Shown piece by piece: positions 19,291 through 46,773 of a DNA stretch of 64,000 nucleotides (positions are counted from its first letter, which is position 1; each line of letters opens with the position of its first letter). The position numbers were made by a program, and so were the translations under genes. Origin of the DNA: Paraflavitalea pollutisoli (GTDB lineage Bacteria; Bacteroidota; Bacteroidia; Chitinophagales; Chitinophagaceae); assembly GCF_029360705.1 (NCBI RefSeq), contig NZ_JARKMX010000008.1:2472202-2536201 (forward strand), given 5' to 3'. The notes beneath the pieces are model-generated. The model was not told the DNA's origin and made no database searches. It saw only the letters and a list, made by a program, of their open reading frames with translations.

Positions 19291-19325
19291 AAAAAAAGAT
19301 CCTGCCGCGGGGCAGGATCTTTTTT
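19291..19325. terminator. Strong bidirectional terminator
   Basis: A perfect stem: A tract, GATCCTGCC, loop GCGG, GGCAGGATC, T tract. It separates the sulfatase transcript from the giant-protein operon, which ends at 19348 on the other strand, and can stop both. Confidence 0.92.
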
Positions 19326-19347: not shown

Positions 19348-22300
19348 TTACCCACAGGTAGTACAGCACACAAACGGCACCTCCGTGAGTGGAGACGTAC
19401 GCAGGATGCGGTAATTACCCAATTGGTTCGATAGCGCCTGCTGTTGCATAGCCTGGCGTTGCTTGATCGCATTCACGACCTCGGGCCGTTTCTGCATCAG
19501 CACTTCTACCTGGTCCATCGGCATACCCAGCTGTTCGAAGACACTGGATATATTGCCAAATACTTCCACGACTACCACACTCAACGAAGCATCCTGGGGC
19601 AAACCCAGTTGGTACAGCAACAGGGAAATCTCCTTATTGGTCCAGTACACGGTAGCCGTCTTCGGCGCATCTTTCAGGATCGCCAGTTTGGCACCCGCTA
19701 CAAGGCTCGCCGCCGTAAACTTATTACCAGCCGTGATGGCCGCCGCGGCAGGCACCATGGTTTCCTTCCAGTTGATCTTTTCGTAAGCACTGATCAATTG
19801 CGCCGCAGCCGTAGCATCCAGCCGCTCTACCTTACCGGCCCGGCGGGCCGTTATTGCCGACACCAGTTTTTTATTGATCGCCGTATCGAGTCGCAGCACA
19901 TTCAGTTCCTTATCTTCCAGCAACGACAAGTGACTGACCAACACATTCGCCTTTTCACTCACCGCCACCTGGTCGGCCGTCCAGCGGGCGACCTGCAATT
20001 GCGCCGCCTGGAAGGTCGGCGTAAAGATGCCGGGATGTATGACGATCGGCTTGTCGAGCACCATCAGGCGCTCATCCAGCAGGATATTGCGATAGCCCTT
20101 GCCATCCGCCTGCCTTACCTGTGCATAGAGCAGGCCATGCAGCTGTGTGCGCGGCGGCGTACAGGTCACATTACGTCCCTGCCATACTGCTTTCGCATAA
20201 GGCGCCGTTACATATACGCGGTCCTTATCGCGGTTCACATTGCAAAGCAGGTTCGGTGCAGGATGCTGCATACCCGTTACCCGCAGGGGGCGGCCAAACC
20301 GGCCCTGTGCCGTACTCCACAGGTCACCTTTGGGATCACGCACCGTCATATGACCATGTGCATGCCCTACCCGGAACTCATACGTGAAGAAACCAAACAA
20401 CTCCGGACTCTCGGGATTTAACCCCGGAGGCAACGGCAACAGGTAATGCACCTTGCTACCACTCGCCTTCTCCATCGGCTGCATAGCCCCCATGCCGGCC
20501 ATATCATCGGTTTGTCCCGGCGTAATAGCGCGAATGTATTCCGGATCGATCGGCAGTGCCGGCTCTTCGGGCACCTCTGTCATGATACCGCCGCGGCTAT
20601 GGCTGAGCAACTGGTCTGGCGCATAGGCCAGCACACGGCAGAACAAGGTATCGTGCGGATCTTTGATCGCCTCTTTCAGCTCCACCCACAGGTAACGCTG
20701 CCGGGGCTCTGTAGCGCTGTAGCGTTCATTCGCCAGGTAGGGCGAGAAAGCAATACCCACACTCGCGATCTCCGGCACCTGTGCTGGTATAATAGTAGTT
20801 GGCAGATGCAATACATCCGACTTGATCGTCACCGGTGCGCCATGGTTCGGACGGAAGCGGGGCGTTAGTTCATACTCCGCATTCAGCTCATCCGGAAAGC
20901 GCAAGCCACCACCCAGCTTTTCCAGCACCGACTTCGGCTCTATCGCATCGATAAAGATCAGCGTGGTATACTCCCGGTTCGTTTCGCCAAACTCATCGTC
21001 TTGCAAACATTCGAACGAAGCAGAACGCTTCAGTTCGATATCGCCCAGCACATTGATCAGTTCTGCTTCTTCTTCCTTATCACGCTCAAACTTGCGTTTA
21101 CGTTTGATCTGAAAACTCACATCCTCCAATCCGTTCCAGGTCCAGTCACGGTTGAGCCGGTAAGCAATACAGCCCAGCCAGTGATTGCACAGGTCGCCTT
21201 TGGAAGAAAAAGTAATACTGGAATGGTCAGGTGCCAGGTGATGGCGGATGCGGTTGCTGCAACCGAATACCACCCGCTCGCCTTTGCGGCCCATGATTGT
21301 AAGCCCGTTGTTGCGCAAACCCAGTTTCTGGGCAAAACGCTGTACAATGTCCGGCATATTGTTGGGCGCCTCCCGGGTCAGGAACCAGGTAGCGAGCACC
21401 CCACTGTTGAGCAAAGGCGGATCGGGTTGCAGGTAAATACCCTGCAAGGCCGGCACATTCACTACCGGCAACAACAGGTCCGCTTCATCGGTAGAAGGCT
21501 CGTGAAACCAGAACTGGCTGGTCTTGCCATATCGCGTATCCTTATTCTTATCAGCGGGATCGCTGAATCCAAAATAACCGGGTTGCTCGGCACACACGGC
21601 CCGCACCGTCATACGGATGCGGCGCGCCGTCGGCAAGGGGATATCACTCATCGCATCGATCGCCGCTTTGTTGAGGTCGGCCCGGTTAAAGGGCTCATCC
21701 GAATTACCGGCCAGCAACACCGGCACGTCATAAAAGACGACTGGCAACGACAGCGTATCTTCAAAACCGGCGGGAAACGCCCGATTGGTCGTATACAAGG
21801 TGATATAGTTCTCCTGTCCCGATTCGCTCAACAGGTTATCCAGTTTCAGGGTTTCGATCTCTACTTTGATCTCTACATGCGTTACATCCGGATCGGCAAT
21901 GCCGGGTACTTTGCTGGGCGCAGCACCACCAGTAGAGGCGATCAACAGATCCACCGGGTTTTGCCCGATCTTCTGGTATTTGTCGGTAAACACCACAGCC
22001 GGGTAGTTCAGCAATGGCCGGGTGATCTCCAGGGTGGGATTGGGAATGGAAACACCATCCTCATTCATGTCGGGTTTGTTGAAATAATACGAAGCGCCCT
22101 GGCGCAGCGCTTCGGGCAATATCACCCGGCACAGATCCGGCGCTACATAGCGCTTGAAGGTATGCTTAGCCAAAGGCGAAGGCGCGTTGTTCACCATGGG
22201 ATCACCGATCACGGGTCCGCCGCCGCTGATGTCCATCATGCGTACCTGAAACTCGTAGGTATTGCCATAGGTGAGGTCAACACCCGAGGGCACTTCATTA

Positions 22301-23730
22301 TAAGGAGAACTGGCATCGACTGCCTTGTTGGGCAAGGGATCGTCATGCTTTATGCGACCGTCGGCATGCCGGTTGATGCGAATGGCATCGGTATCTTTCA
22401 GCACGAGACTTCTGCCGATCCAGTTGGTGAAGTACATGGGCAGCCAGTAAGGCGCATTGGTATTGTTATCGAGCTGCGACGGGAATACCTGGAAGGGCAA
22501 CTCGATGCCACCATCCGGTGTACCGCCCAGGTTGGCATCGCCCAGCATCAACGTTTGTTGACTTTCCACCCGGTTCAGACTTCTCCAATCACCGCCCGCT
22601 TCTGTGTTGCGTACATCGATGCGGTAACCATATACACCCATGGGTACATCCAGCCGTTTGCCCGGCTCCATGGGGTTGGCACTCAACTGCCGCAGGTACC
22701 AGATCATGATCTGCTCATCATCCCAGGCCAGGCGGATACCAGTATCCGTTTGCGGTGCTGGCCCATCCTGCCGTTCACTCAGTATATTGTTGCTTACCTG
22801 CTGACCGGCGTGAATGATCTTCGCATAACCGTCGTTGTATTCGTTCAGCTCGGCAAAGATCTTATCCCATTCTGCCTGTTGCGGTATGGGATCCGTAGCA
22901 GCGTTTTTCTGTTTGTGCAGCACGGGGAACAGCATCGGCGCAAATACCGGGCGTTTGGTACCCATCGTCAAGGCAGGGATGCGCGCCGCATAGCGTTTTA
23001 CGAAAGGCCCCTGTGTGCCTTCCAGCATATCTTCCTGCACCGCTGCTGTTTGTGTATCGACCATATTGACGAAAATGAACCCGCCCTTGACCAGCACATC
23101 GGCATGTGCCGTGAGGTCGATCGAGGCGGTGTAGATCATGCCGCAAGCCCGGGCCAGCATCGGCTGCCGCAGGATATGCGCAAAGACCTGGCCCCAGCTG
23201 AGGTCATCATTGGTCTTCCAGTTCTTATCCTTCGGCGTATCTTTCTTTACCGCACAATGGTAGCTATCGTCCAGCTTGGCATTGGGGTGGCGTGGGTTCG
23301 TGAAATTGAAAGCCGTCCGGTAACTCTCGGGCAGGTATTTCTGCACGCTCTGATTTTCCGGCAACGGCGTATCAGGCGCTTTATCCGTCTTGGTGGCGGA
23401 AGATCCATCCATATTGATCTTAGCACCCAGTTGCTTGGCAATGCCTTCCAGCGCTGCTTTTTTATTGACAGCCACATCGACGGTTACCGGTAGGGCGGTA
23501 TTGGCTCCGATATTACCAATGGGCCATTCTTCCAGTCCCTTGCGCAACACCACTTCAAATTGTGGTACCAGGTCGGCAAAAGGGGTGGAATTCTCGTGAC
23601 CAGCAACGCCCGTTGGCCATATCTTGAACGGGTCCTGGTTACGCGGAATTAAAACGATGTGTACCTGAAGATGGGTCCCGTCAAATCCCTGCGGGAACAC
23701 CATCGTCGTATATTTTCTGTTAGCTTCCAT
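19348..23730 (-). CDS. Very large protein of unknown function (1460 residues)
   Basis: I do not recognise this protein. It has no signal peptide (start MEANRKYTTMVFPQGFDGTH), no membrane helix and no nucleotide-binding or protease motif that I can see. It is rich in Pro, Asn and short beta strands, in the manner of multi-domain beta-sandwich proteins. About residues 1250-1400 are more helical and Ala/Lys-rich (AAAAITAGNKFTAASLVAGA). The C-terminus is Cys-rich, ending EVPFVCCTTCG. It is the second gene of an operon, 29 bases after the 1888-residue protein, and ends 23 bases before a strong terminator. The pair probably works together. It could be a cytosolic structural assembly, a toxin or an effector exported by an unseen system; nothing here decides. 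Confidence 0.8.
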   Translation of the reverse strand: MEANRKYTTMVFPQGFDGTHLQVHIVLIPRNQDPFKIWPTGVAGHENSTPFADLVPQFEVVLRKGLEEWPIGNIGANTALPVTVDVAVNKKAALEGIAKQLGAKINMDGSSATKTDKAPDTPLPENQSVQKYLPESYRTAFNFTNPRHPNAKLDDSYHCAVKKDTPKDKNWKTNDDLSWGQVFAHILRQPMLARACGMIYTASIDLTAHADVLVKGGFIFVNMVDTQTAAVQEDMLEGTQGPFVKRYAARIPALTMGTKRPVFAPMLFPVLHKQKNAATDPIPQQAEWDKIFAELNEYNDGYAKIIHAGQQVSNNILSERQDGPAPQTDTGIRLAWDDEQIMIWYLRQLSANPMEPGKRLDVPMGVYGYRIDVRNTEAGGDWRSLNRVESQQTLMLGDANLGGTPDGGIELPFQVFPSQLDNNTNAPYWLPMYFTNWIGRSLVLKDTDAIRINRHADGRIKHDDPLPNKAVDASSPYNEVPSGVDLTYGNTYEFQVRMMDISGGGPVIGDPMVNNAPSPLAKHTFKRYVAPDLCRVILPEALRQGASYYFNKPDMNEDGVSIPNPTLEITRPLLNYPAVVFTDKYQKIGQNPVDLLIASTGGAAPSKVPGIADPDVTHVEIKVEIETLKLDNLLSESGQENYITLYTTNRAFPAGFEDTLSLPVVFYDVPVLLAGNSDEPFNRADLNKAAIDAMSDIPLPTARRIRMTVRAVCAEQPGYFGFSDPADKNKDTRYGKTSQFWFHEPSTDEADLLLPVVNVPALQGIYLQPDPPLLNSGVLATWFLTREAPNNMPDIVQRFAQKLGLRNNGLTIMGRKGERVVFGCSNRIRHHLAPDHSSITFSSKGDLCNHWLGCIAYRLNRDWTWNGLEDVSFQIKRKRKFERDKEEEAELINVLGDIELKRSASFECLQDDEFGETNREYTTLIFIDAIEPKSVLEKLGGGLRFPDELNAEYELTPRFRPNHGAPVTIKSDVLHLPTTIIPAQVPEIASVGIAFSPYLANERYSATEPRQRYLWVELKEAIKDPHDTLFCRVLAYAPDQLLSHSRGGIMTEVPEEPALPIDPEYIRAITPGQTDDMAGMGAMQPMEKASGSKVHYLLPLPPGLNPESPELFGFFTYEFRVGHAHGHMTVRDPKGDLWSTAQGRFGRPLRVTGMQHPAPNLLCNVNRDKDRVYVTAPYAKAVWQGRNVTCTPPRTQLHGLLYAQVRQADGKGYRNILLDERLMVLDKPIVIHPGIFTPTFQAAQLQVARWTADQVAVSEKANVLVSHLSLLEDKELNVLRLDTAINKKLVSAITARRAGKVERLDATAAAQLISAYEKINWKETMVPAAAAITAGNKFTAASLVAGAKLAILKDAPKTATVYWTNKEISLLLYQLGLPQDASLSVVVVEVFGNISSVFEQLGMPMDQVEVLMQKRPEVVNAIKQRQAMQQQALSNQLGNYRILRTSPLTEVPFVCCTTCG

Positions 23731-23759
23731 GTCGAAATTTTAAAGTTGAAGGAACTCGG

Positions 23760-26700
23760 TTACGCGATCTGGCGGTCTTCGCCCCAGGTCTTCGAGAAAC
23801 TGATGTCGATGATCAGGAAGATGCTGATATCGATGGCGAACGTTACCTGTGCAGAACAATCCGTTTGGTTGTTTTCCCGCACGATGATGCCCTTGGCTTC
23901 GATGGTTATAGTTACCGCCACCAGACCACCAAGTAACTCGGCATGACCGCGGAAACGCATCAGCGCCGCTACCACCACCTTGTTCTTATCGGCATACATC
24001 TGCACTCCGACCAGGTAGCTCACACTGGCAGACCCTACCACCGGCAGGCTCACCACGATCTCCACCCCAAATCCGAAGTCCAGCGTCAGGCTCGGACCTA
24101 CCTTGGTATCGCAGGCGATCTTCACATCGACCGTACCAATCGCGAAGATGCTGCCCACGCCTACCGACATGCACATCACCTTCAGGCCGCCATGGAATTT
24201 CAGGAAGGCACCTGCCGTCGGTAACAGTTGCTTGGGATCGGTCGTTACCTTCAGCGCAGCGTTGAAATACACGCCCACACCGAGCGAGGCTTCCAGCTTC
24301 AACGGTGTTTGTGCACTGTTGTACAACTCATCCGTTGGCGGGAACCGCACGAGGGGGATCTCTTTGCCCGCTTCGAACTTATACTCCCAGATCTCACCGC
24401 TGTTGCTCATCGCTATCTTCAATCCCTTCTTCATCGCTTCTGCATAATTGCCGCTGCTTAAAGAAGCCAGCACCTGCAGGATATCGATCACCGGTTGCAG
24501 GGCATCACTGAACTCGATCTCCGGTGTGGGGAATCCATCACCTCCCTGATCGCCCTCATAGCCCGTTTCCTTTCCTTTCTTACTATCGAAATTGCCTTTG
24601 ATGATCATCAGGCGCTTCATATCGCCCAGGTCAACGACCATCGCCAGGTTGTTCAGGCGGCTCTTCCACTGGTCGCCCAGTTCAGCAGCCCGCGAAGTAA
24701 GATCGAAGTTCAACCGGCCCGTATCCCCTTTCGGGTCCTTGTCCTTCTTCTTGGTAGCATACTCGATATAAATACGCAAGGCCTCGGTGTCTACCAACGG
24801 CACTTCAAAATTGGGCACATCAAACTTCATCGCTTTATCCAGCAAGCCGTTGGCCCCTTTCTGCAATAGACTCATACCCTGCTCTACGATCGCTTCGCCT
24901 GCTTTTACGGGGGTGATCTCCATCAGCTCCAGCACATTCGTCACACCATCTTTCAGCGAGCTGGCATTAAAGGCTTCAAACAGGGAGTCATCCGGCCGCT
25001 TGCCATGAAACAGCGGCATCGCTTTACCGAAATTATCGATGGCATTGCCCACATTGGGGAAGATCCCATTGCCGGTCATCAACCGATAAGCATCGGCAAA
25101 AATGGGTGGCGTTTTACTGAGCAATTGTTTCTTGTTGAAACCAAAGGCCGGCGTCAGGAACAACGCCTTTTGCGTGGCCGTACTTTGCAGGAAACCAAAG
25201 TTGATGGTATCGTTGACTGCTTCACGAATGATCTCTTTGGGATGGGCAATCCGCAGCAATTGCTGCTCGACATCCGCCTGGCTCACCACCACGTTTTTCT
25301 TCCACAGCCCTTTGCGGATCAGCGGCACGCTGGTACCAGCCGGCAGCGGTGCCACATCACCGGTACCAACCTCATGCTGCACCATCGTCCAGCTACCATC
25401 CTTGGGCAATATCACCTGGCCACGGCCCGCCAATACGAATACTGGCTTGGTACCATCCAGCGATACGTTGCAGTCGAAACGCGTCAGCTTCATCTGCTGG
25501 TTGCTTTGCGCAATATCCACCACACAATCCAGGTCGCCACCGATACTGCCGCCATGCAATTCCAGCAGCCCTTTCAATTGCAGTGGCGTCAACGGTATGC
25601 CCGCCGGCGCCACCTGCACATAGCCCAGTATTTTCTTCGATACCACTTTCTTATTCGTATGCCCCTGCACCACGTTTTCAATCTCTACATCGGCATCGAA
25701 ATACACGGCGCCGCATTTTACCGGTTCGGTAATGCCGCCGGCATCGGCGATCATCTCCTGCCCTTTCACCCCATTCACATAGGGCAAGCCGCCAGGATAA
25801 TTGTTCACGTCGATGTATTCCGCTACAGAAGGCGCGTCTTTGATATTGCGGATATTGAAGAGCCCCCGTACCACACCCGGGTGAAAATCGTACGGCGATG
25901 CCACGGTGTTGAAATCACTGTCCTTCAGGTCGTCAGCAAAGGGATCTTTGCCTTGCAGCAGGTAGCGGTACGAAAAGTCAAACAAGCCATCGCTTTCTGC
26001 CTTCCAACCGCTATCCACCCGGTACACATAGCCGGTACTCGTACGGAATACCGTGATGGTACGCACCACCCGGATGCCCCAGGGATACAGGATACTTTTC
26101 ACCTGTATCACTTCATGACCGGTACGGCCCAGCATCACATCGAATTTGGCCTGGCTCGTTTGCGCCATCGCGGCCGTAGGGCTCAGCCATTTGCTGAAGA
26201 TATTGGCGCCATACCCCGTCACATCCATCCGTGACAAAGGCACCCCGCGCGACTTCTCCAGTCCCGGTGTACCCAGCGGCTGCACCAGGAATTCATTGTT
26301 GAAGATCTCCGTTACCCGGTGCCCCAGGTTACTTTCCCCTTTGGCCAGGCCCGACATATCGAGCAGGTTGTTGAGCTGCACCGTATAACCCGGGAACATG
26401 GGCGAATCCCGTTCTTCCGGCGTAGGCACCGGCTTACCGAATTGGCCGGCACTGAACTGGATCTGTATACCGCCCCGCAACTTGTGGCTGCCATCTTCCT
26501 GCTTGCGAAACTGGGGCCGCAGGTTATTGATATCCGGCTTTACCGGCTCTACAAAGTTTTTAGATACATAACTGATGGCCTTCAATCCAAACGGAAGCGT
26601 GAAGGAAGCCACCGTAAAATTCTTCGGGTTGTCTTTGAAGTCTTTGATCAACGCATCGATCACAGGGATCGGAGCCAACGCCACTAACTCCGTACTGTTG

Positions 26701-29426
26701 TTCCAGAGACGCGTAGCACCGCCGTCGTTGGCGTAGTAGATAAAGCCTGCTTCCGGGTCCATTGGCAGTTTGGGATCACCTGGTTTCTCCCGGTCGGGTG
26801 CCGTCAGGTTGATCACCGGCTCCCACGCAATTTGCGGCAGGGTGAAGCTCTTGACCAGGTTCGAGGGCGACTTCACCTGCATGCCCTCCACCACAAAGGG
26901 GAAGGCGTTGTTGGCAGCTGAACGCATGCCCGTCAACTGTACCGTTTGTTCGCCCACAATACCAGGCACTACCGTACCCGTTTGCACAAACAACATGGTC
27001 GGGTTGATACTGATGCCCATCTGGTTGGCATTGCTGCTCACATCGAGCAACGCGAATACATCATTGTCGATACCACTACCGATCACATCGTTTTCCCAGA
27101 AACCGGTATAGCCATTGGTCTTCAGTAACGCCTGCCGTTTGTTCTTGAGGTCTTGCCCGGTAGCCACCGTATCCAACACCGGTTTGCTAACAGGTGCATT
27201 GGGTGTAGCAGGCGTTTGCGTAATGCCCCCTTTCGGAATGAACAGTTCGCTGACCGGCGACTTGATCACACGCTCCTGCACCAGGTCGGTCACTTTGATG
27301 CGCGTAACATTTTTGAATTGGGTCAGCCGCACCCCTTCATTGAGTTTTACAGATTTCAGCTTCACGTCTACCAGTACGGGCCGGCGGATCTCGCTGGGTA
27401 TCTTTTTGCCAGGGGTAATGATACCACCCGGACGGGTAGGCGTAGCTGGTTGGGCTGGTTGTGCAGGCTGTGCGGGTTGCGCTGGTTGTACAGGAGTGGC
27501 AGGTTGCTCTTCCGGCAACTCCGTCCAGGAGGGCGGCGTGGTACCGAAATAAAAATCGGTCGACACATCATCGCCTGCACTTCCCTTAGCATAACGCACC
27601 AAACATACCAGCATCGTCTTCAATTGATCCAGCGTACCAGTAGTAGGCACACCAGCAGCAGCACCCATCAGCCTGCCACCGTTGAAGCGACGCATCCACG
27701 GCGCTACATTCCCCACATAAGGATCGGGCAAGGTAGGCAGGTAGGTCGACAGACCCAACACCAGGAAGAAATTGGCCCGCGTTACCTTGCGCCAGTTCTC
27801 GCTCAATTCGCCAAACAACATCAAACCAGCCACCGGCGATACCGTAAACAAGGCATTCTCCAGGGCAATCGCTTCCCAATCGAAAATGGGTTGCTTGTCA
27901 TTGGGCTTTTTATTATCCCATAATAAGTTATCATCCACCAGCATCAGCAATCGGCGTTGCTTGTTGGCAAACAACGTGAGCGCCGAAGCGCGGGAGCGCA
28001 TGGCAAAGGGACTACTGTCTACTTTCAGTGGTCGGTCGGCCTGTATATCACCATCCACGAAGATCGTCACCATCTCCTGGTTTTGCTCCGCAGAAATGGC
28101 CAGCCCAAAAGGAGCTGCCTGTAAATAAGTAATGGCCGCCGTAGAAGCGGGCCGCTGGTCTTCCTGCCACAGGTCAAAGTCTTGCCGGGCGCCGAGACCT
28201 TGGGCGGCAATATCGATGAGGGTGATCATCGAAGGCTCGGCATTGATGACGGTGGCCTGCAGGCGCAGGTCTTCATGCTGCAGTCCGGGCCAGGTAACAC
28301 GCAAGCCCTTGTCGGCCACCAGCACGACCGAACCGCCGCTATCCGCTTGTACCGGGTTGGCCACATCGAGCGTCGCCACCGGCAATCCCCAGTAGGCCTT
28401 GGTCAGCTTGGCCTGTCCCGATAGTCTAAAGGCCGGGCTGGACGAATCACTGACCACAAAGTCTGCCGGCGACACATTCCACGGGATCAGTACTTTACTG
28501 ATCAGCGCATTGTACTCGAGCGCGATCGCCGCCTGGCCGGTATTGCTGAAGCTCATGGCCTGTCCGAATACCGTGGCCGTTGCCTGACCGATACCGGTAA
28601 TATCTACCTTATTGTTTTGCCATACCAGTTGTAAAGAGGCAGGCAGGCTGTAGGTCGCTTTACGCGCATCGTCGCCATAACCACTGCCATCACCCGGATA
28701 CGTTTCGGTAGGTTGTTCAATGTCGAGGGAAAGCGTGATGATGGTAGCGGGGTTGAGGGTAGCCTGGTTGTTTTGCAGTACGGGGGCGATACTCGTTTTG
28801 AGTGTTCCGCCTTTGATCTTCAGGCCTACATATTTGTCATTGGGTGCTACGGGCGATAACAAATGTGCATTGATCCAAATACTGCCGGCATTCAAGGTGT
28901 ACTGTTGTAACAAGGGCGGTGGCGGGGTGGGACCCACGATGACGGGATTGCCACGCACAGTGGTCTTGAACAGCAAAGCCGGCACGCCATTCATGTAGAG
29001 CGTGACGAGCTTCACGATGCGGTAAATGTCGATCCAGATCTCGAGTCCCTGTTCATTGAGGAAGGGCCCCAGTATTTCAATGGGTTTACTACCGACCGCC
29101 CAGTCGGGCACACTGCCCGCCACTTCATACTGGCGTACGGGTACCTGGCGGATAAAGAACCGGGTTTCCGGATCCTTGTTGTCTTTGATGGTCTGCGCAG
29201 CGACCGACTTGATCTGGTCGAGCGACACCTTGCTCACTTCGGGAGCGGAAAAAAGCTGCGCGGAATTGAAGACGACTTGCTCGCCTGCATACGGAATATC
29301 TCCTTTTACTACCGAGGAAGCGATGAGCTCCTGGGCCCGCTTCAATTGCTGCTCCTGTCCGGGAGCGGCCGGTTGAAGCCGGGCAGTAAGGTTTTCCAGC
29401 AGGCGCGAGAGTTGGTCCTGTGTCAT
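23760..29426 (-). CDS. Very large protein of unknown function (1888 residues)
   Basis: I do not recognise this protein. Start MTQDQLSRLLENLTARLQPA at 29426 is chosen over frames opening at 29453-29465 because it begins a good amphipathic helix; there is no signal peptide. The protein is mostly beta-rich. A low-complexity Pro/Ala/Gln linker sits at about residues 640-665, splitting an N-terminal block (1-640) from a central block (670-1530). The last 300 residues have many strands with alternating hydrophobic residues (LTLDFGFGVEIVVSLPVVGS, VAVTITIEAKGIIV) and end SFSKTWGEDRQIA. Such strands suggest an elongated sheet, hydrophobic groove or membrane-active surface (inference). First gene of the two-gene operon. 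Confidence 0.82.
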   Translation of the reverse strand: MTQDQLSRLLENLTARLQPAAPGQEQQLKRAQELIASSVVKGDIPYAGEQVVFNSAQLFSAPEVSKVSLDQIKSVAAQTIKDNKDPETRFFIRQVPVRQYEVAGSVPDWAVGSKPIEILGPFLNEQGLEIWIDIYRIVKLVTLYMNGVPALLFKTTVRGNPVIVGPTPPPPLLQQYTLNAGSIWINAHLLSPVAPNDKYVGLKIKGGTLKTSIAPVLQNNQATLNPATIITLSLDIEQPTETYPGDGSGYGDDARKATYSLPASLQLVWQNNKVDITGIGQATATVFGQAMSFSNTGQAAIALEYNALISKVLIPWNVSPADFVVSDSSSPAFRLSGQAKLTKAYWGLPVATLDVANPVQADSGGSVVLVADKGLRVTWPGLQHEDLRLQATVINAEPSMITLIDIAAQGLGARQDFDLWQEDQRPASTAAITYLQAAPFGLAISAEQNQEMVTIFVDGDIQADRPLKVDSSPFAMRSRASALTLFANKQRRLLMLVDDNLLWDNKKPNDKQPIFDWEAIALENALFTVSPVAGLMLFGELSENWRKVTRANFFLVLGLSTYLPTLPDPYVGNVAPWMRRFNGGRLMGAAAGVPTTGTLDQLKTMLVCLVRYAKGSAGDDVSTDFYFGTTPPSWTELPEEQPATPVQPAQPAQPAQPAQPATPTRPGGIITPGKKIPSEIRRPVLVDVKLKSVKLNEGVRLTQFKNVTRIKVTDLVQERVIKSPVSELFIPKGGITQTPATPNAPVSKPVLDTVATGQDLKNKRQALLKTNGYTGFWENDVIGSGIDNDVFALLDVSSNANQMGISINPTMLFVQTGTVVPGIVGEQTVQLTGMRSAANNAFPFVVEGMQVKSPSNLVKSFTLPQIAWEPVINLTAPDREKPGDPKLPMDPEAGFIYYANDGGATRLWNNSTELVALAPIPVIDALIKDFKDNPKNFTVASFTLPFGLKAISYVSKNFVEPVKPDINNLRPQFRKQEDGSHKLRGGIQIQFSAGQFGKPVPTPEERDSPMFPGYTVQLNNLLDMSGLAKGESNLGHRVTEIFNNEFLVQPLGTPGLEKSRGVPLSRMDVTGYGANIFSKWLSPTAAMAQTSQAKFDVMLGRTGHEVIQVKSILYPWGIRVVRTITVFRTSTGYVYRVDSGWKAESDGLFDFSYRYLLQGKDPFADDLKDSDFNTVASPYDFHPGVVRGLFNIRNIKDAPSVAEYIDVNNYPGGLPYVNGVKGQEMIADAGGITEPVKCGAVYFDADVEIENVVQGHTNKKVVSKKILGYVQVAPAGIPLTPLQLKGLLELHGGSIGGDLDCVVDIAQSNQQMKLTRFDCNVSLDGTKPVFVLAGRGQVILPKDGSWTMVQHEVGTGDVAPLPAGTSVPLIRKGLWKKNVVVSQADVEQQLLRIAHPKEIIREAVNDTINFGFLQSTATQKALFLTPAFGFNKKQLLSKTPPIFADAYRLMTGNGIFPNVGNAIDNFGKAMPLFHGKRPDDSLFEAFNASSLKDGVTNVLELMEITPVKAGEAIVEQGMSLLQKGANGLLDKAMKFDVPNFEVPLVDTEALRIYIEYATKKKDKDPKGDTGRLNFDLTSRAAELGDQWKSRLNNLAMVVDLGDMKRLMIIKGNFDSKKGKETGYEGDQGGDGFPTPEIEFSDALQPVIDILQVLASLSSGNYAEAMKKGLKIAMSNSGEIWEYKFEAGKEIPLVRFPPTDELYNSAQTPLKLEASLGVGVYFNAALKVTTDPKQLLPTAGAFLKFHGGLKVMCMSVGVGSIFAIGTVDVKIACDTKVGPSLTLDFGFGVEIVVSLPVVGSASVSYLVGVQMYADKNKVVVAALMRFRGHAELLGGLVAVTITIEAKGIIVRENNQTDCSAQVTFAIDISIFLIIDISFSKTWGEDRQIA
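27436..27505 (-). repeat. Pro/Ala/Gln low-complexity linker repeat
   Basis: Within the 1888-residue protein the reverse strand encodes four to five copies of the tripeptide QPA flanked by PATP (PVQPAQPAQPAQPAQPATP). The short repeated codon triplets form a near-tandem nine-base repeat. It probably marks a flexible interdomain linker. Confidence 0.7.
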
Positions 29427-42453: not shown

Positions 42454-45400
42454 CTATTGGTTAAGGTAATAATTGAGTTGGATCACAGATTGATTATAAG
42501 CGTTCAGGCTCTCCAGGTAATTACGCTGGATATCGATCGCCTGTGACAGGTATTGCGACAGTTCCGCAAAACTGATCTCACCGGCCCGGTAGGCGAGCGA
42601 AGATGCCTTGATAATTTCGTTGGCCTGCCTCAACCCGGTCGTTTCATAAAAGGTAACCATGCTATGGTTCTTCTGCACTTCTTTTTCTGCCTGGTTCTTC
42701 TCCGTACCAAACACCTGCAGCTCATAGCTGTATTGCTGCTCTTGCAACGCAGCTTCCGCTTCGGCAGCCCGTACCCGGTTGCGGGTAGCGCCCAGCCCAA
42801 ACAACGGGAAGCTGGCCATCACCGAAAAACCGGTAAAAGGATCACTCAGGCCATACAGCCGTTGGCTGAAGAAACGGCCGCTGAACTCGGGCCGGTTCTC
42901 GTTCTTCACAACAGGTATGCCTGCCCGGGCGATATTGACTTGTTGCACCTGCAATGCAATCTGCGGATGTATGGAATCGGCGGCCAGCAAAGGGAACGGC
43001 AGTTTTTCCAGAACGCCGGCCACCGGGAGGTAACTGGTATCGGTATTGAGCAGCTGCATCAGCGATCGTTGTTGCACGTCTACATCATTCCCGATCTGCC
43101 GCACCTGCGCTTCCAGCTCCCGCAACCGCACGGTGGCAGCGATACTGTCCAACCCCGGGCTATCGCCCGTTTTCACTTTCAGGATGGCAGCTGCTTGCAA
43201 GGAGCGATAGATACTGTCCAGCCGGGCATACAATCCCTGTTTTTCCTGCAGGTACCATAACTGGTAATAAACACGCCGCACATCACGCTTCAAGGCGGCA
43301 TCGATCACCTGGGCATTGGCCTGGTAATAACGCACCTGTTCTGTATACAGGTTCTTCTGCGCTTTGTACAATCCCGGCCATGCCACTGCCTGCGACACAC
43401 CGATCTTCAAAATGCCCTTTTTATCGCTGGGGCGCAAGTCTTCATTTTCTGCAAACACCCCTGTTTTCGGCAACAGCGTAGCCGTCTTTACCTGGGCTTG
43501 CCCTTTCAAAACCTGCTGCTGGTTGATGCTATACTGCAGGTTATTGCCAGCCGCCCGGATCGCGTCTTGAATAGCAATGCGCCGGCTGGTTGTTGGCTGC
43601 GCCTGCGCCACACCGGCAACAAGCATGAATCCACCTGCTAGTACAGCGTCGATCATCGGTTTCAAGGAACCTCCTTTTTTTCGGGAGAACATAATGTATA
43701 ATAAAGGCAATACAAACAACGTCAGGAAGGTAGCAGTCACCAGTCCGCCGATCACCACCGTAGCCAGCGGCTTCTGCACTTCGGCCCCTGCACCACTCGA
43801 CAAAGCCATGGGAAAAAATCCCAATGATGCCACCATCGCCGTCATCAACACCGGTCGCAAACGCGTCTTGGTTCCTTCATACACCCGTTGGAACACATCG
43901 CTCACGCCCTCCTTTTCGAGGTGATTGAACGTACTGATCAACACGATACCATTCAGCACCGCTACGCCAAACAAGGCAATGAAGCCCACCCCGGCCGATA
44001 TACTAAAGGGCATACCCCGCAGCATCAGCGCAAATACCCCACCGATGGCACTCATCGGTATCGCGGTATAGATCAGCAACGCCTCTTTGAAGGAACTGAA
44101 CGTGAAATACAACAGCATAAAGATGAGTGCGAGTGCTATGGGTACCGCAATGCGCAACCGCGCAGAGGCTTCCTGCAGGTTCTCAAACGTTCCCCCATAG
44201 GTATAGTAATAACCGGAAGGCAACAATTTCGCGGCATCCAGTTTTTGTTGGATATCCCTGACCACCCCTTCCACATCGCGCCCCGAAATATTGAACCCGA
44301 TCACGATCCGGCGTTTACCATCTTCCCGGCTGATCTGTGCCGGCCCTTCCTTGAAACTGACCTGCGCCACCTGTGATAACGGTATCTGGTTGCCATCGGG
44401 CGTGGTCACAAACAAATTGCTTACATCATCGATAGAAGTGCGGTTGGCACTGTCGAGCCGCACCACGAGATCAAACTTGCGTTCATTCTCGAAGACCACA
44501 CCAGCCGATTCGCCCGCAAAGGCCGTGCTGATCGTCCGGTTGATATCGGCTACATTCATCCCATAGGCAGCGATACGCGCCCGGTCATACTGCACGGTGA
44601 TCTGCGGCAGTCCGGTCGTGCGCTCAATTTGTGGCGCCGTAGCACCGGGAACAGACTGCACCACTTTTGCCACCCTGGTAGCCAGACTCGCCAATGTGTC
44701 GATATGCTCTCCGAAGATCTTGATTGCTACATCCTGGCGTACACCGGTCATCAGTTCATTAAAGCGCATTTGAATGGGCTGGTTGGATTCGAAGAAAACA
44801 CCTGGGATCACCTCTAGTTGCTCCAGCATCATTGCAGCCAGTTCATTGTAGTCTTTCGTATTCGTCCATTCGCTTTTCGGCTTCAACACCACGATCAGGT
44901 CGCTGGCCTCGGGTGGCATCGGGTCGGTAGGCACCTCCGCCGAACCGGTCTTACCCACCACCAGTTTCACCTCGGGAAAACTACGGATGATCCGGCTGGC
45001 CTGCATCGAGGTCTCGATACTTTGGGACAGCGAAGTGCCTTGCGGCAGGATGCAGTGAAAAGCATAATCCCCTTCCTGCAATTGGGGAATGAACTCTCCG
45101 CCCATGCGGGTGAAGCAGAAAACGGCTGTAGCAAAAATCGCTACGGTAATGGCCACTACCGCTATCCGCAGCTTCACCGCCTTCCGCAACAACGGGGTAT
45201 ATAGCCGCTGGAAGAACGCCATCATACGGTCGGATAAAGTCCGCTTATGCTGCGCATGCTTCGGCAATATCAGCGCCGACATCATCGGTATATAGGTCAG
45301 TGACAGGATCAGGGCACCCAGGATGGCAAAGCTGACCGTTTGCGCCATCGGGCGAAACATCTTGCCTTCAATGCCCACCAATGTCAGAATAGGAATGTAG

Positions 45401-46773
45401 ACGATCAGGATAATGATCTCTCCAAAAGCCGCGCTACTTCGTATGCGGGAAGCTGATACAAACACCTCCTGGTCCATTTCAGCCTGCGTTAGCTTATGCG
45501 TTGACTTTCGCAAACCCAGGTGGTGCAGCGTCGCTTCTACAATAATCACGGCACCATCTACGATCAGGCCAAAATCGATCGCACCAAGGCTCATCAGGTT
45601 GGCACTGACGCCAAAGGCATGCATCATACCCAGTGCAAACAACATCGACAGCGGTATCGCCGAAGCCACGATGAGGCCCGCCCGCAGGTTGCCCAGGAAC
45701 AACACCAGCACAAACACCACGATCAAGGCACCCTCGATCAGGTTCTTCTTCACGGTGCCCACCGCCCGATCGACGAGATCGGTCCTGTCGAGAAATGCCT
45801 CTACCACGACATCATCCGGCAATGACCGCTGGATGGTTGCCATCTTTTCCTTCACCCGGTTTACCACAGCAGCACTATTGGCCCCCTTCAACATCATCAC
45901 AATACCGCCTACTACTTCTTTTTCGCCATTATAGGTGACCGATCCATACCGCACCGCACTGCCCAATTGTACATTGGCCACATCCCGTACCAGTACCGGG
46001 ATCCCATTCACCCTTTTGATCACGATGTTGCGGATGTCTTCCAGTGAACTCACCAGTCCGATACCGCGAATAAAATAGGCATTGGGCTTTTTGTCGATAT
46101 AAGCACCGCCCGTATTGGCATTGTTGTTTTCCAGGGCGGTAAAGATCTCCGACATGGTAACGTTCATGCCCTTCAACCGGTCGGGACTTACCCCTACTTC
46201 GTATTGTTTGAGCATACCACCGAAACTATTCACTTCGGCCACCCCCGGCGTACCATACAATTGACGGGCAACGATCCAGTCCTGCAGGGTACGCAGGTCC
46301 ATCGCCGTGTACTTGTCTTCGGCCCCCTTCTTAGGGTGAAGGATGTATTGATAGATCTCCCCCAGCCCCGTGCTCACGGGCGCCAGTTGAGGCGTACCGA
46401 TTCCCGCCGGTATATGCGCTTCGGCTTGCTTGAGTTTTTCGGAGATGAGTTGACGGGCAAAATAGATATCGACCTCATCTTTGAAAACCACGGTGATCAC
46501 CGACAGGCCAAAACGGGAGATTGAGCGCATTTCCTCCAGGTCGGGCAGGTTGGCCAGGCTTTGTTCGATCGGGTAAGTGACCAACTGCTCGGTTTCCTGG
46601 GCAGCCAGTGTAGGGGTATTGGTAATGATCTGCACCTGGTTGTTCGTGATATCCGGCACTGCATCGACCGGCAACTGGAAGGCACTCCAAACACCCCAGA
46701 CAATGAGCCCCCCCGTCAACAAACCAATGATCAGCTTATTTTGAATTGAAAAACGAATAATCTTGTCCAGCAT
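42454..46773 (-). CDS. czcA: CzcA-type RND metal pump fused to a TolC-like outer-membrane channel
   Basis: A protein of 1439 residues. Residues 1 to about 1030 are a complete heavy-metal RND pump (start MLDKIIRFSIQNKLIIGLLT; helix 4 DFGLIVDGAVIIVE with the Asp, Asp and Glu of divalent-cation CzcA proteins). After MFSRKKGGSLKP comes a signal-peptide-like segment (MIDAVLAGGFMLVAGVAQAQ), then about 380 residues of a TolC/CzcC protein with coiled-coil repeats. So inner-membrane pump and outer-membrane channel are encoded as one chain, probably cut after AQAQ by signal peptidase (inference). Similar fusions exist in other Bacteroidota. The acidic triad points to Co, Zn, Cd or Ni rather than copper. 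Confidence 0.93.
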   Translation of the reverse strand: MLDKIIRFSIQNKLIIGLLTGGLIVWGVWSAFQLPVDAVPDITNNQVQIITNTPTLAAQETEQLVTYPIEQSLANLPDLEEMRSISRFGLSVITVVFKDEVDIYFARQLISEKLKQAEAHIPAGIGTPQLAPVSTGLGEIYQYILHPKKGAEDKYTAMDLRTLQDWIVARQLYGTPGVAEVNSFGGMLKQYEVGVSPDRLKGMNVTMSEIFTALENNNANTGGAYIDKKPNAYFIRGIGLVSSLEDIRNIVIKRVNGIPVLVRDVANVQLGSAVRYGSVTYNGEKEVVGGIVMMLKGANSAAVVNRVKEKMATIQRSLPDDVVVEAFLDRTDLVDRAVGTVKKNLIEGALIVVFVLVLFLGNLRAGLIVASAIPLSMLFALGMMHAFGVSANLMSLGAIDFGLIVDGAVIIVEATLHHLGLRKSTHKLTQAEMDQEVFVSASRIRSSAAFGEIIILIVYIPILTLVGIEGKMFRPMAQTVSFAILGALILSLTYIPMMSALILPKHAQHKRTLSDRMMAFFQRLYTPLLRKAVKLRIAVVAITVAIFATAVFCFTRMGGEFIPQLQEGDYAFHCILPQGTSLSQSIETSMQASRIIRSFPEVKLVVGKTGSAEVPTDPMPPEASDLIVVLKPKSEWTNTKDYNELAAMMLEQLEVIPGVFFESNQPIQMRFNELMTGVRQDVAIKIFGEHIDTLASLATRVAKVVQSVPGATAPQIERTTGLPQITVQYDRARIAAYGMNVADINRTISTAFAGESAGVVFENERKFDLVVRLDSANRTSIDDVSNLFVTTPDGNQIPLSQVAQVSFKEGPAQISREDGKRRIVIGFNISGRDVEGVVRDIQQKLDAAKLLPSGYYYTYGGTFENLQEASARLRIAVPIALALIFMLLYFTFSSFKEALLIYTAIPMSAIGGVFALMLRGMPFSISAGVGFIALFGVAVLNGIVLISTFNHLEKEGVSDVFQRVYEGTKTRLRPVLMTAMVASLGFFPMALSSGAGAEVQKPLATVVIGGLVTATFLTLFVLPLLYIMFSRKKGGSLKPMIDAVLAGGFMLVAGVAQAQPTTSRRIAIQDAIRAAGNNLQYSINQQQVLKGQAQVKTATLLPKTGVFAENEDLRPSDKKGILKIGVSQAVAWPGLYKAQKNLYTEQVRYYQANAQVIDAALKRDVRRVYYQLWYLQEKQGLYARLDSIYRSLQAAAILKVKTGDSPGLDSIAATVRLRELEAQVRQIGNDVDVQQRSLMQLLNTDTSYLPVAGVLEKLPFPLLAADSIHPQIALQVQQVNIARAGIPVVKNENRPEFSGRFFSQRLYGLSDPFTGFSVMASFPLFGLGATRNRVRAAEAEAALQEQQYSYELQVFGTEKNQAEKEVQKNHSMVTFYETTGLRQANEIIKASSLAYRAGEISFAELSQYLSQAIDIQRNYLESLNAYNQSVIQLNYYLNQ

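Follow-up and report, generated by a model that had tools for sequence, protein, structure and literature searches.

Two adjacent genes for giant proteins in Paraflavitalea pollutisoli: a conserved pair with a possible membrane- or lipid-engaging role

Which kind of system is encoded by two adjacent giant genes that carry no family name? This question was raised by a 64,000-nucleotide stretch of the Paraflavitalea pollutisoli genome (contig NZ_JARKMX010000008.1, positions 2,472,202 to 2,536,201; hereafter the window). Gene A (23760-29426, minus strand), the first of the pair, encodes 1888 aa from an ATG codon, and an alternative TTG start is located 13 codons upstream in the same frame. Gene B (19348-23730, minus strand), the second of the pair, encodes 1460 aa and is separated from A by 29 bases (23731-23759, minus strand). 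These coordinates and lengths, which together span more than 10 kb, were given in an original prediction made from the sequence alone and were confirmed here. Our tentative answer, which we hold as possible rather than probable, is that A and B are subunits of one large complex in which a predicted sheet of A engages a membrane or lipid and B acts as a scaffold.

A conserved gene pair under purifying selection

Relatives were sought in 84,980 species, each represented by one genome, using six short peptide patterns; the scan is not a census. A was encoded at 48 loci, and B was located directly downstream on the same strand at 45 of them, while the other three (L018, L019, and L049) were cut by contig ends. 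The gap between the genes in the 45 pairs was 19-230 nt (median 28 nt) and did not exceed 60 nt in 36 pairs. As previously proposed, a strong Rho-independent terminator follows the pair: a hairpin of 14 pairs with a U run was detected after B (19293-19324, minus strand; z -3.63), and an equally good hairpin occurred in 1 of 200 shuffles. It is preceded by an A run and may perhaps act in both directions; the consensus terminator scanner of the region did not list it. A and B would be made from one transcript.

The ratio of nonsynonymous to synonymous divergence (dN/dS) was 0.077 for A and 0.056 for B in comparison with L009 (Paraflavitalea sp. CAU 1676), values that rest on this one relative and on synonymous sites near saturation (dS 1.26 for A and 1.77 for B). 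The low ratios suggest that both are real, selected genes. The earlier argument for selection was thus borne out, both by these ratios and by the retention of the pair, and A and B evolve under purifying selection.

No full-length match to a characterized family was found in Pfam, NCBIfam, PADLOC, PHROGs, or the Protein Data Bank (PDB). Neither protein matched Pfam, NCBIfam, or PADLOC at E 1, and nothing significant was obtained in PHROGs (best 0.092 for A and 0.02, to a protease family, for B). The PADLOC-DB scan, which returned 0 families, was limited to A and B of the window and is silent on undescribed defence. The A sequence gave five weak PDB matches, the best of which (0.00097, to a large tegument protein) crossed a low-complexity linker, whereas the A profile gave none; B gave none by sequence and one nonsignificant match (2.7) by profile. 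Profile A1 was built from 30 of 49 A rows, and profile A2 from 29 of 46 B rows. A Pro/Ala/Gln-rich variable linker of A (approximately residues 650-770; 27117-27479, minus strand) is mostly gapped in relatives in the 49-row alignment. A literature search of titles and abstract openings revealed no description of the pair. These results uphold the view that the locus is an undescribed two-gene system under selection that encodes large proteins and has homologous pairs in many genomes. By new we mean that there is no known family or system under which A and B can be filed; a new mechanism is not implied. More than 10 kb of strongly conserved coding sequence, kept as a strict pair across phyla, thus carries no family name in the searched libraries.

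Two other origins were considered and rejected. A and B are not mutual relatives, as their comparison gave no homology. A phage or virus origin was likewise discarded: A had no match among 50,697 phage records, and no relative of B was present among 45 IMG/VR matches to two short patterns. A viral fold library yielded weak, mostly generic matches, including phage tail and fibre proteins.

Distribution, horizontal transfer, and a distant branch

The A loci belong to Chitinophagaceae, Cyclobacteriaceae, Flavobacteriaceae (Gelidibacter and Kriegella), and Lewinella, together with one Brocadia metagenome-assembled genome (MAG), one Nodosilinea assembly, and some loosely named MAGs. Plasmid records added Chlorohelix (Chloroflexota), Microvirga terrae, and Tistrella, and the record of a Microvirga sp. 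VF16 plasmid matched 19% of B. In the phylum of the window genome, the B profile was detected in 14 and the A profile in 11 of 395 genomes; strong matches to both were present in 10, split over contigs in two of these (G080 and G357). With the centre genome included in each count, the genomes with B numbered 1 of 292 in the cyanobacterial phylum, 2 of 246 in the Brocadia phylum, 9 of 148 in the family of Algoriphagus boseongensis (G130), and 8 of 98 (including the weak match in G328) in the class of G263, which, judging by eye from the genes nearby, we take to be the green sulfur bacteria. The pair is a scattered accessory trait. G267 carried a 307-aa A fragment with one internal TAA (L117, contig C185) and had no B match; the fragment is probably a decaying copy. 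In Tistrella, A is annotated as a short gene approximately 1 kb ahead of B (L100 6964-10656) and is possibly a broken copy.

A and B distances agreed closely (Mantel r 0.963; none of 2000 shuffles as high) across 55 rows, Tistrella being omitted for its short A. A B tree of 56 rows was built by a quick method and contained several long branches; L079 (G175), where both proteins occur, was absent from the tree and the distance test. Gelidibacter (202 kb contig) and Kriegella (1.24 Mb contig) fell inside a fully supported set of 13 rows, whose other members were Chitinophagaceae apart from two MAGs with loose names. Brocadia B was placed just outside this set, within the wider Chitinophagaceae group, and Nodosilinea B was paired with that of Lewinella; the short Brocadia (37 kb) and Nodosilinea (9.4 kb) contigs could be contamination. 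Another genome of the Brocadia phylum (G864) had a partial B match (model positions 938-1380, in a frame of 972 aa) located 3.25 Mb into a long contig. Paraflavitalea CAU 1676 and Gelidibacter algens each carry an additional, divergent pair, and the two additional pairs cluster with one another. No clean empty site was readable in four siblings, where the flanking antiporter was at most 59% identical. The pair is co-inherited and horizontally spread, with a sporadic distribution across phyla, and may move from one bacterium to another as a cassette of two genes.

Four genomes (G159, G286, G328, and G431) matched B weakly next to a further giant frame, in G431 cut by the contig end. A second group with unchanged gene order, A'B', was recognized through these genomes. 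It was found in Streptomyces (2 records), Cupriavidus metallidurans CH34, Rhizobium (2), Diaphorobacter, genomes of family f44, and G328. B' matches were present in 13 plasmid records, over at most 27% of B' in five of them; six records were examined. Profile comparison indicated homology between B and B' (98.0%, E 2.8e-13) and between A and A', the latter confined to the C-terminal ~280 residues (95.4%). When nine segment pairings of A and A' were compared, the two C-terminal segments alone scored (96.0%), the others reaching at most 0.3%; reversed profiles, shuffles, and two SusC-like barrels, used as controls, gave at most 5.7%. The A/A' match was absent with the first, thin profiles and emerged only with wider alignments. 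A likeness in the middle regions that had been seen by eye was not upheld by the segment comparison. The matches at the end of A and along B imply that the ancient core consists of A's end together with an extended region of B. Counting A'B', the pair occurs in up to six named phyla, in one- and two-membrane cells, with Cyanobacteriota represented on a single short contig.

The distant branch was no easier to name. Among 21 diverse A, B, A', and B' members, Pfam gave weak matches (best, Apolipoprotein, 5.2e-6 in 2 members) that fell mostly in one helical stretch in the one member examined, and no convincing Pfam or NCBIfam family was found among the members scanned. The A' profile matched ten PDB sequences at E <=1, including apolipoprotein A-IV (0.0017), other helical chains, and glutamate-receptor chains, whereas the B' profile matched none. 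The common end of A and A' had no PDB match at E 10 and gave only stray rows in Pfam and PHROGs. A Streptomyces B'' protein matched a phage tail-tube model at 0.0091, far below the cut-off of the model. Positions 1120-1220 of the A' profile (alignment A6) weakly matched the anti-phage protein Ec2ApeA (E 0.01), probably by chance. Two A' genes are possibly broken copies: that of Rhizobium ruizarguesonis pRlX2 (L130 9742-13984) is annotated as two pieces of 837 and 519 aa, and that of G328 (L082 11347-15750) aligns with its relatives in two reading frames close to the end. Two f44 genomes contain a divergent gene with similar beginnings (L083 17012-19501, 830 aa, cut; L084 1307-4153, 948 aa); the complete copy has RCC1-like repeats by eye and is a possible local partner of A'B'.

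Predicted folds and competing explanations

AlphaFold2 models were obtained for residues 775-1888 of A, from an alignment that left out L018, and for residues 1-1200 of B; they support the earlier description of both proteins as beta-rich and multi-domain. The last ~210 residues of A (1678-1888; 23763-24395, minus strand), the part common to A', were predicted with low to moderate confidence to form a sheet or open barrel of ten long antiparallel strands, porin-like in appearance. Eight of the ten were strongly two-faced in the model, and in most strands one predicted face was mainly aliphatic and the other polar. B was predicted, again with low to moderate confidence, to be largely a chain of fibronectin-III-like beta sandwiches (approximately residues 299-1156; 20263-22836, minus strand). 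Sandwiches of this general kind occur in fibronectin type III proteins such as C5a peptidase ScpA, contactins, and the insulin receptor, and the B model gave a generic match to ScpA (Foldseek 3.7e-7; VIA 7.7, 197 aligned, rmsd 4.6); unlike these proteins, B had no Pfam match at E 1, and no protease or receptor part was seen.

Both proteins end in conserved sequence. The motif LGxxRILRTSPLTxVPxVCC at the C-terminal end of B (19351-19422, minus strand) was exact in 40 of 46 rows and present in relaxed form in all 46. A ends in W-x-E-x-R(Q/R)(I/V)A in 45 of 49 rows; of the other four, two continue beyond it and two stop at contig ends. Contig C84 of the Brocadia MAG also contains a lone 93-aa frame (L101 9251-9532, minus strand) comprising only the conserved C-terminal end of B. 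It adjoins frames resembling transposase by eye and probably represents what is left of a further, broken pair.

A crude hydropathy scan revealed no signal peptide or clear membrane helix in the two proteins, as originally predicted, and no hydrophobic N-terminus in A of the window. A crude scan across relatives flagged 6 of 59 A N-termini, two for stretches upstream of the conserved start and four for RR motifs lacking a hydrophobic stretch. When A' N-termini were judged by eye for the Tat signal motif, Tat-like signals were recognized in 3 of 9 (Streptomyces NBC_01334, L083, and L084). Since no export signal was seen in A proper, the complex would start, and in most hosts perhaps stay, in the cytosol; the signals in a minority of A' suggest that some lineages probably export it folded.

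We infer the complex, its cell location, and the function of A and B as follows. The aliphatic face of A's end may bind or enter a membrane or lipid surface, and B may serve as the scaffold that keeps the sheet soluble until its target is met. Such a membrane- or lipid-engaging role of the two-faced sheet, as modelled, is an addition to the roles originally proposed, namely a large cytosolic assembly, a surface structure, and a toxin. The amphipathic beta-belt of ApoB100 likewise has long two-faced strands and gave a weak structural match; the superposition was poor (rmsd 25.6) and A has no sequence relation to it, so the likeness is one of working idea only. In its full form, the proposal would make A/B and A'/B' an undescribed two-protein membrane or lipid machine: a soluble giant with a porin-like sheet made without Sec would be held by a fibronectin-like partner until it inserts into or wraps lipid, with folded export where a Tat-like signal is present. 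We regard this full form as unlikely. Should A's end enter a membrane or wrap lipid, one- and two-membrane bacteria would have in common a porin-like domain that is synthesized in the cytosol, raising the question of how such sheets stay soluble and get delivered.

The first part of the predicted sheet was poorly modelled, which weighs against a membrane- or lipid-engaging complex and shifts some weight to a soluble alternative. In that alternative, A and B form a soluble cytosolic scaffold or particle, and the end of A is an ordinary beta domain, with the greasy face packed inside as its core and no membrane contact. The low confidence of the barrel, the many beta sandwiches predicted in B, the strong purifying selection on both proteins, and the lack of a visible signal peptide in A proteins proper are all consistent with it. 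A soluble scaffold or particle is a serious rival, though in itself unlikely; even this outcome would put a name to a sizeable gap in the annotation of many environmental genomes.

The best structural matches to A's end, among the matches listed, were outer-membrane barrels (CymA, OmpG, and autotransporter translocators), which might suggest a surface protein with a genuine outer-membrane barrel at the end of A and the remainder of A exposed together with B. These matches span only the last ninth of A, and A lacks a visible signal peptide and any sequence match to such barrels. The outer-membrane beta-signal is C-terminal and ends in an aromatic residue, whereas no such signal was seen in A, 45 of 49 rows of which end in the motif given above. 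In addition, a domain homologous to A's end is present in A' of two Streptomyces plasmids, that is, in a genus without an outer membrane. The domain is therefore not tied to that membrane, and an outer-membrane barrel is improbable. Nothing pointed to type IX secretion either: no Sec signal was seen in A, and neither A nor B matched an NCBIfam family at E 1.

The same two-faced sheet would also suit a released two-part pore-forming toxin or weapon, in which B carries or targets and A's end inserts into the membrane of a rival or host. An accessory cassette of two genes with a scattered distribution and signs of transfer, and Tat-like signals in some A', fit this explanation. To examine the neighbourhood, 663 predicted proteins from up to 10 kb on either side of the loci were clustered, and no third gene family consistently adjoined the pair, so no consistent gene for immunity or export was available. 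The extreme C-termini are conserved rather than polymorphic, in contrast to what a polymorphic toxin would require, both proteins evolve slowly, and the pair has no clear link to a marker of contractile injection systems. Insecticidal-type toxin complexes resemble A and B in being large, beta-rich, multi-gene proteins of scattered distribution; A and B had no Pfam or NCBIfam match to their components, and again no consistent third gene. A released pore-former is a serious rival as well, although we judge it quite unlikely.

The original prediction had also raised the possibility that the pair accompanies secretion or injection genes. Carriers of the pair overlap groups rich in contractile injection systems, and the window genome encodes PF14065 (G000:C15:3515305-3515832), a marker of extracellular contractile injection systems (eCIS). 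The marker was detected in 36 of 80 genomes: 16 of 31 carriers (absent from 15) and 20 of 49 non-carriers (p = 0.37). Thus, no clear link between eCIS and the pair was found in the 80 genomes, and no injection gene was a consistent neighbour. A role as cargo or accessory of such systems is very improbable and, like the outer-membrane protein, is disfavoured. Of the earlier interpretation, the undescribed, selected two-gene system stands, whereas the pairing with secretion or injection genes was not supported.

Neighbouring genes

Besides A and B, the widespread neighbour clusters stem from a block of synteny in Algoriphagus and its close relatives, and some close species pairs have flanks in common. 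A few common families, among them a sigma factor, a universal stress protein, and a membrane protein (named by eye), are repeated at scattered loci and occupy other positions there. On two unrelated plasmids a catalase gene is found close to the pair, upstream in Chlorohelix (katG, L098 4170-6344) and downstream in Tistrella (L100 17107-19227), probably by chance. Elsewhere in the window, a 1439-aa frame (42454-46773, minus strand) appears by eye to join a metal-efflux RND pump and a TolC-like outer-membrane channel in one chain, and it adjoins genes for a periplasmic adaptor and a P-type ATPase.
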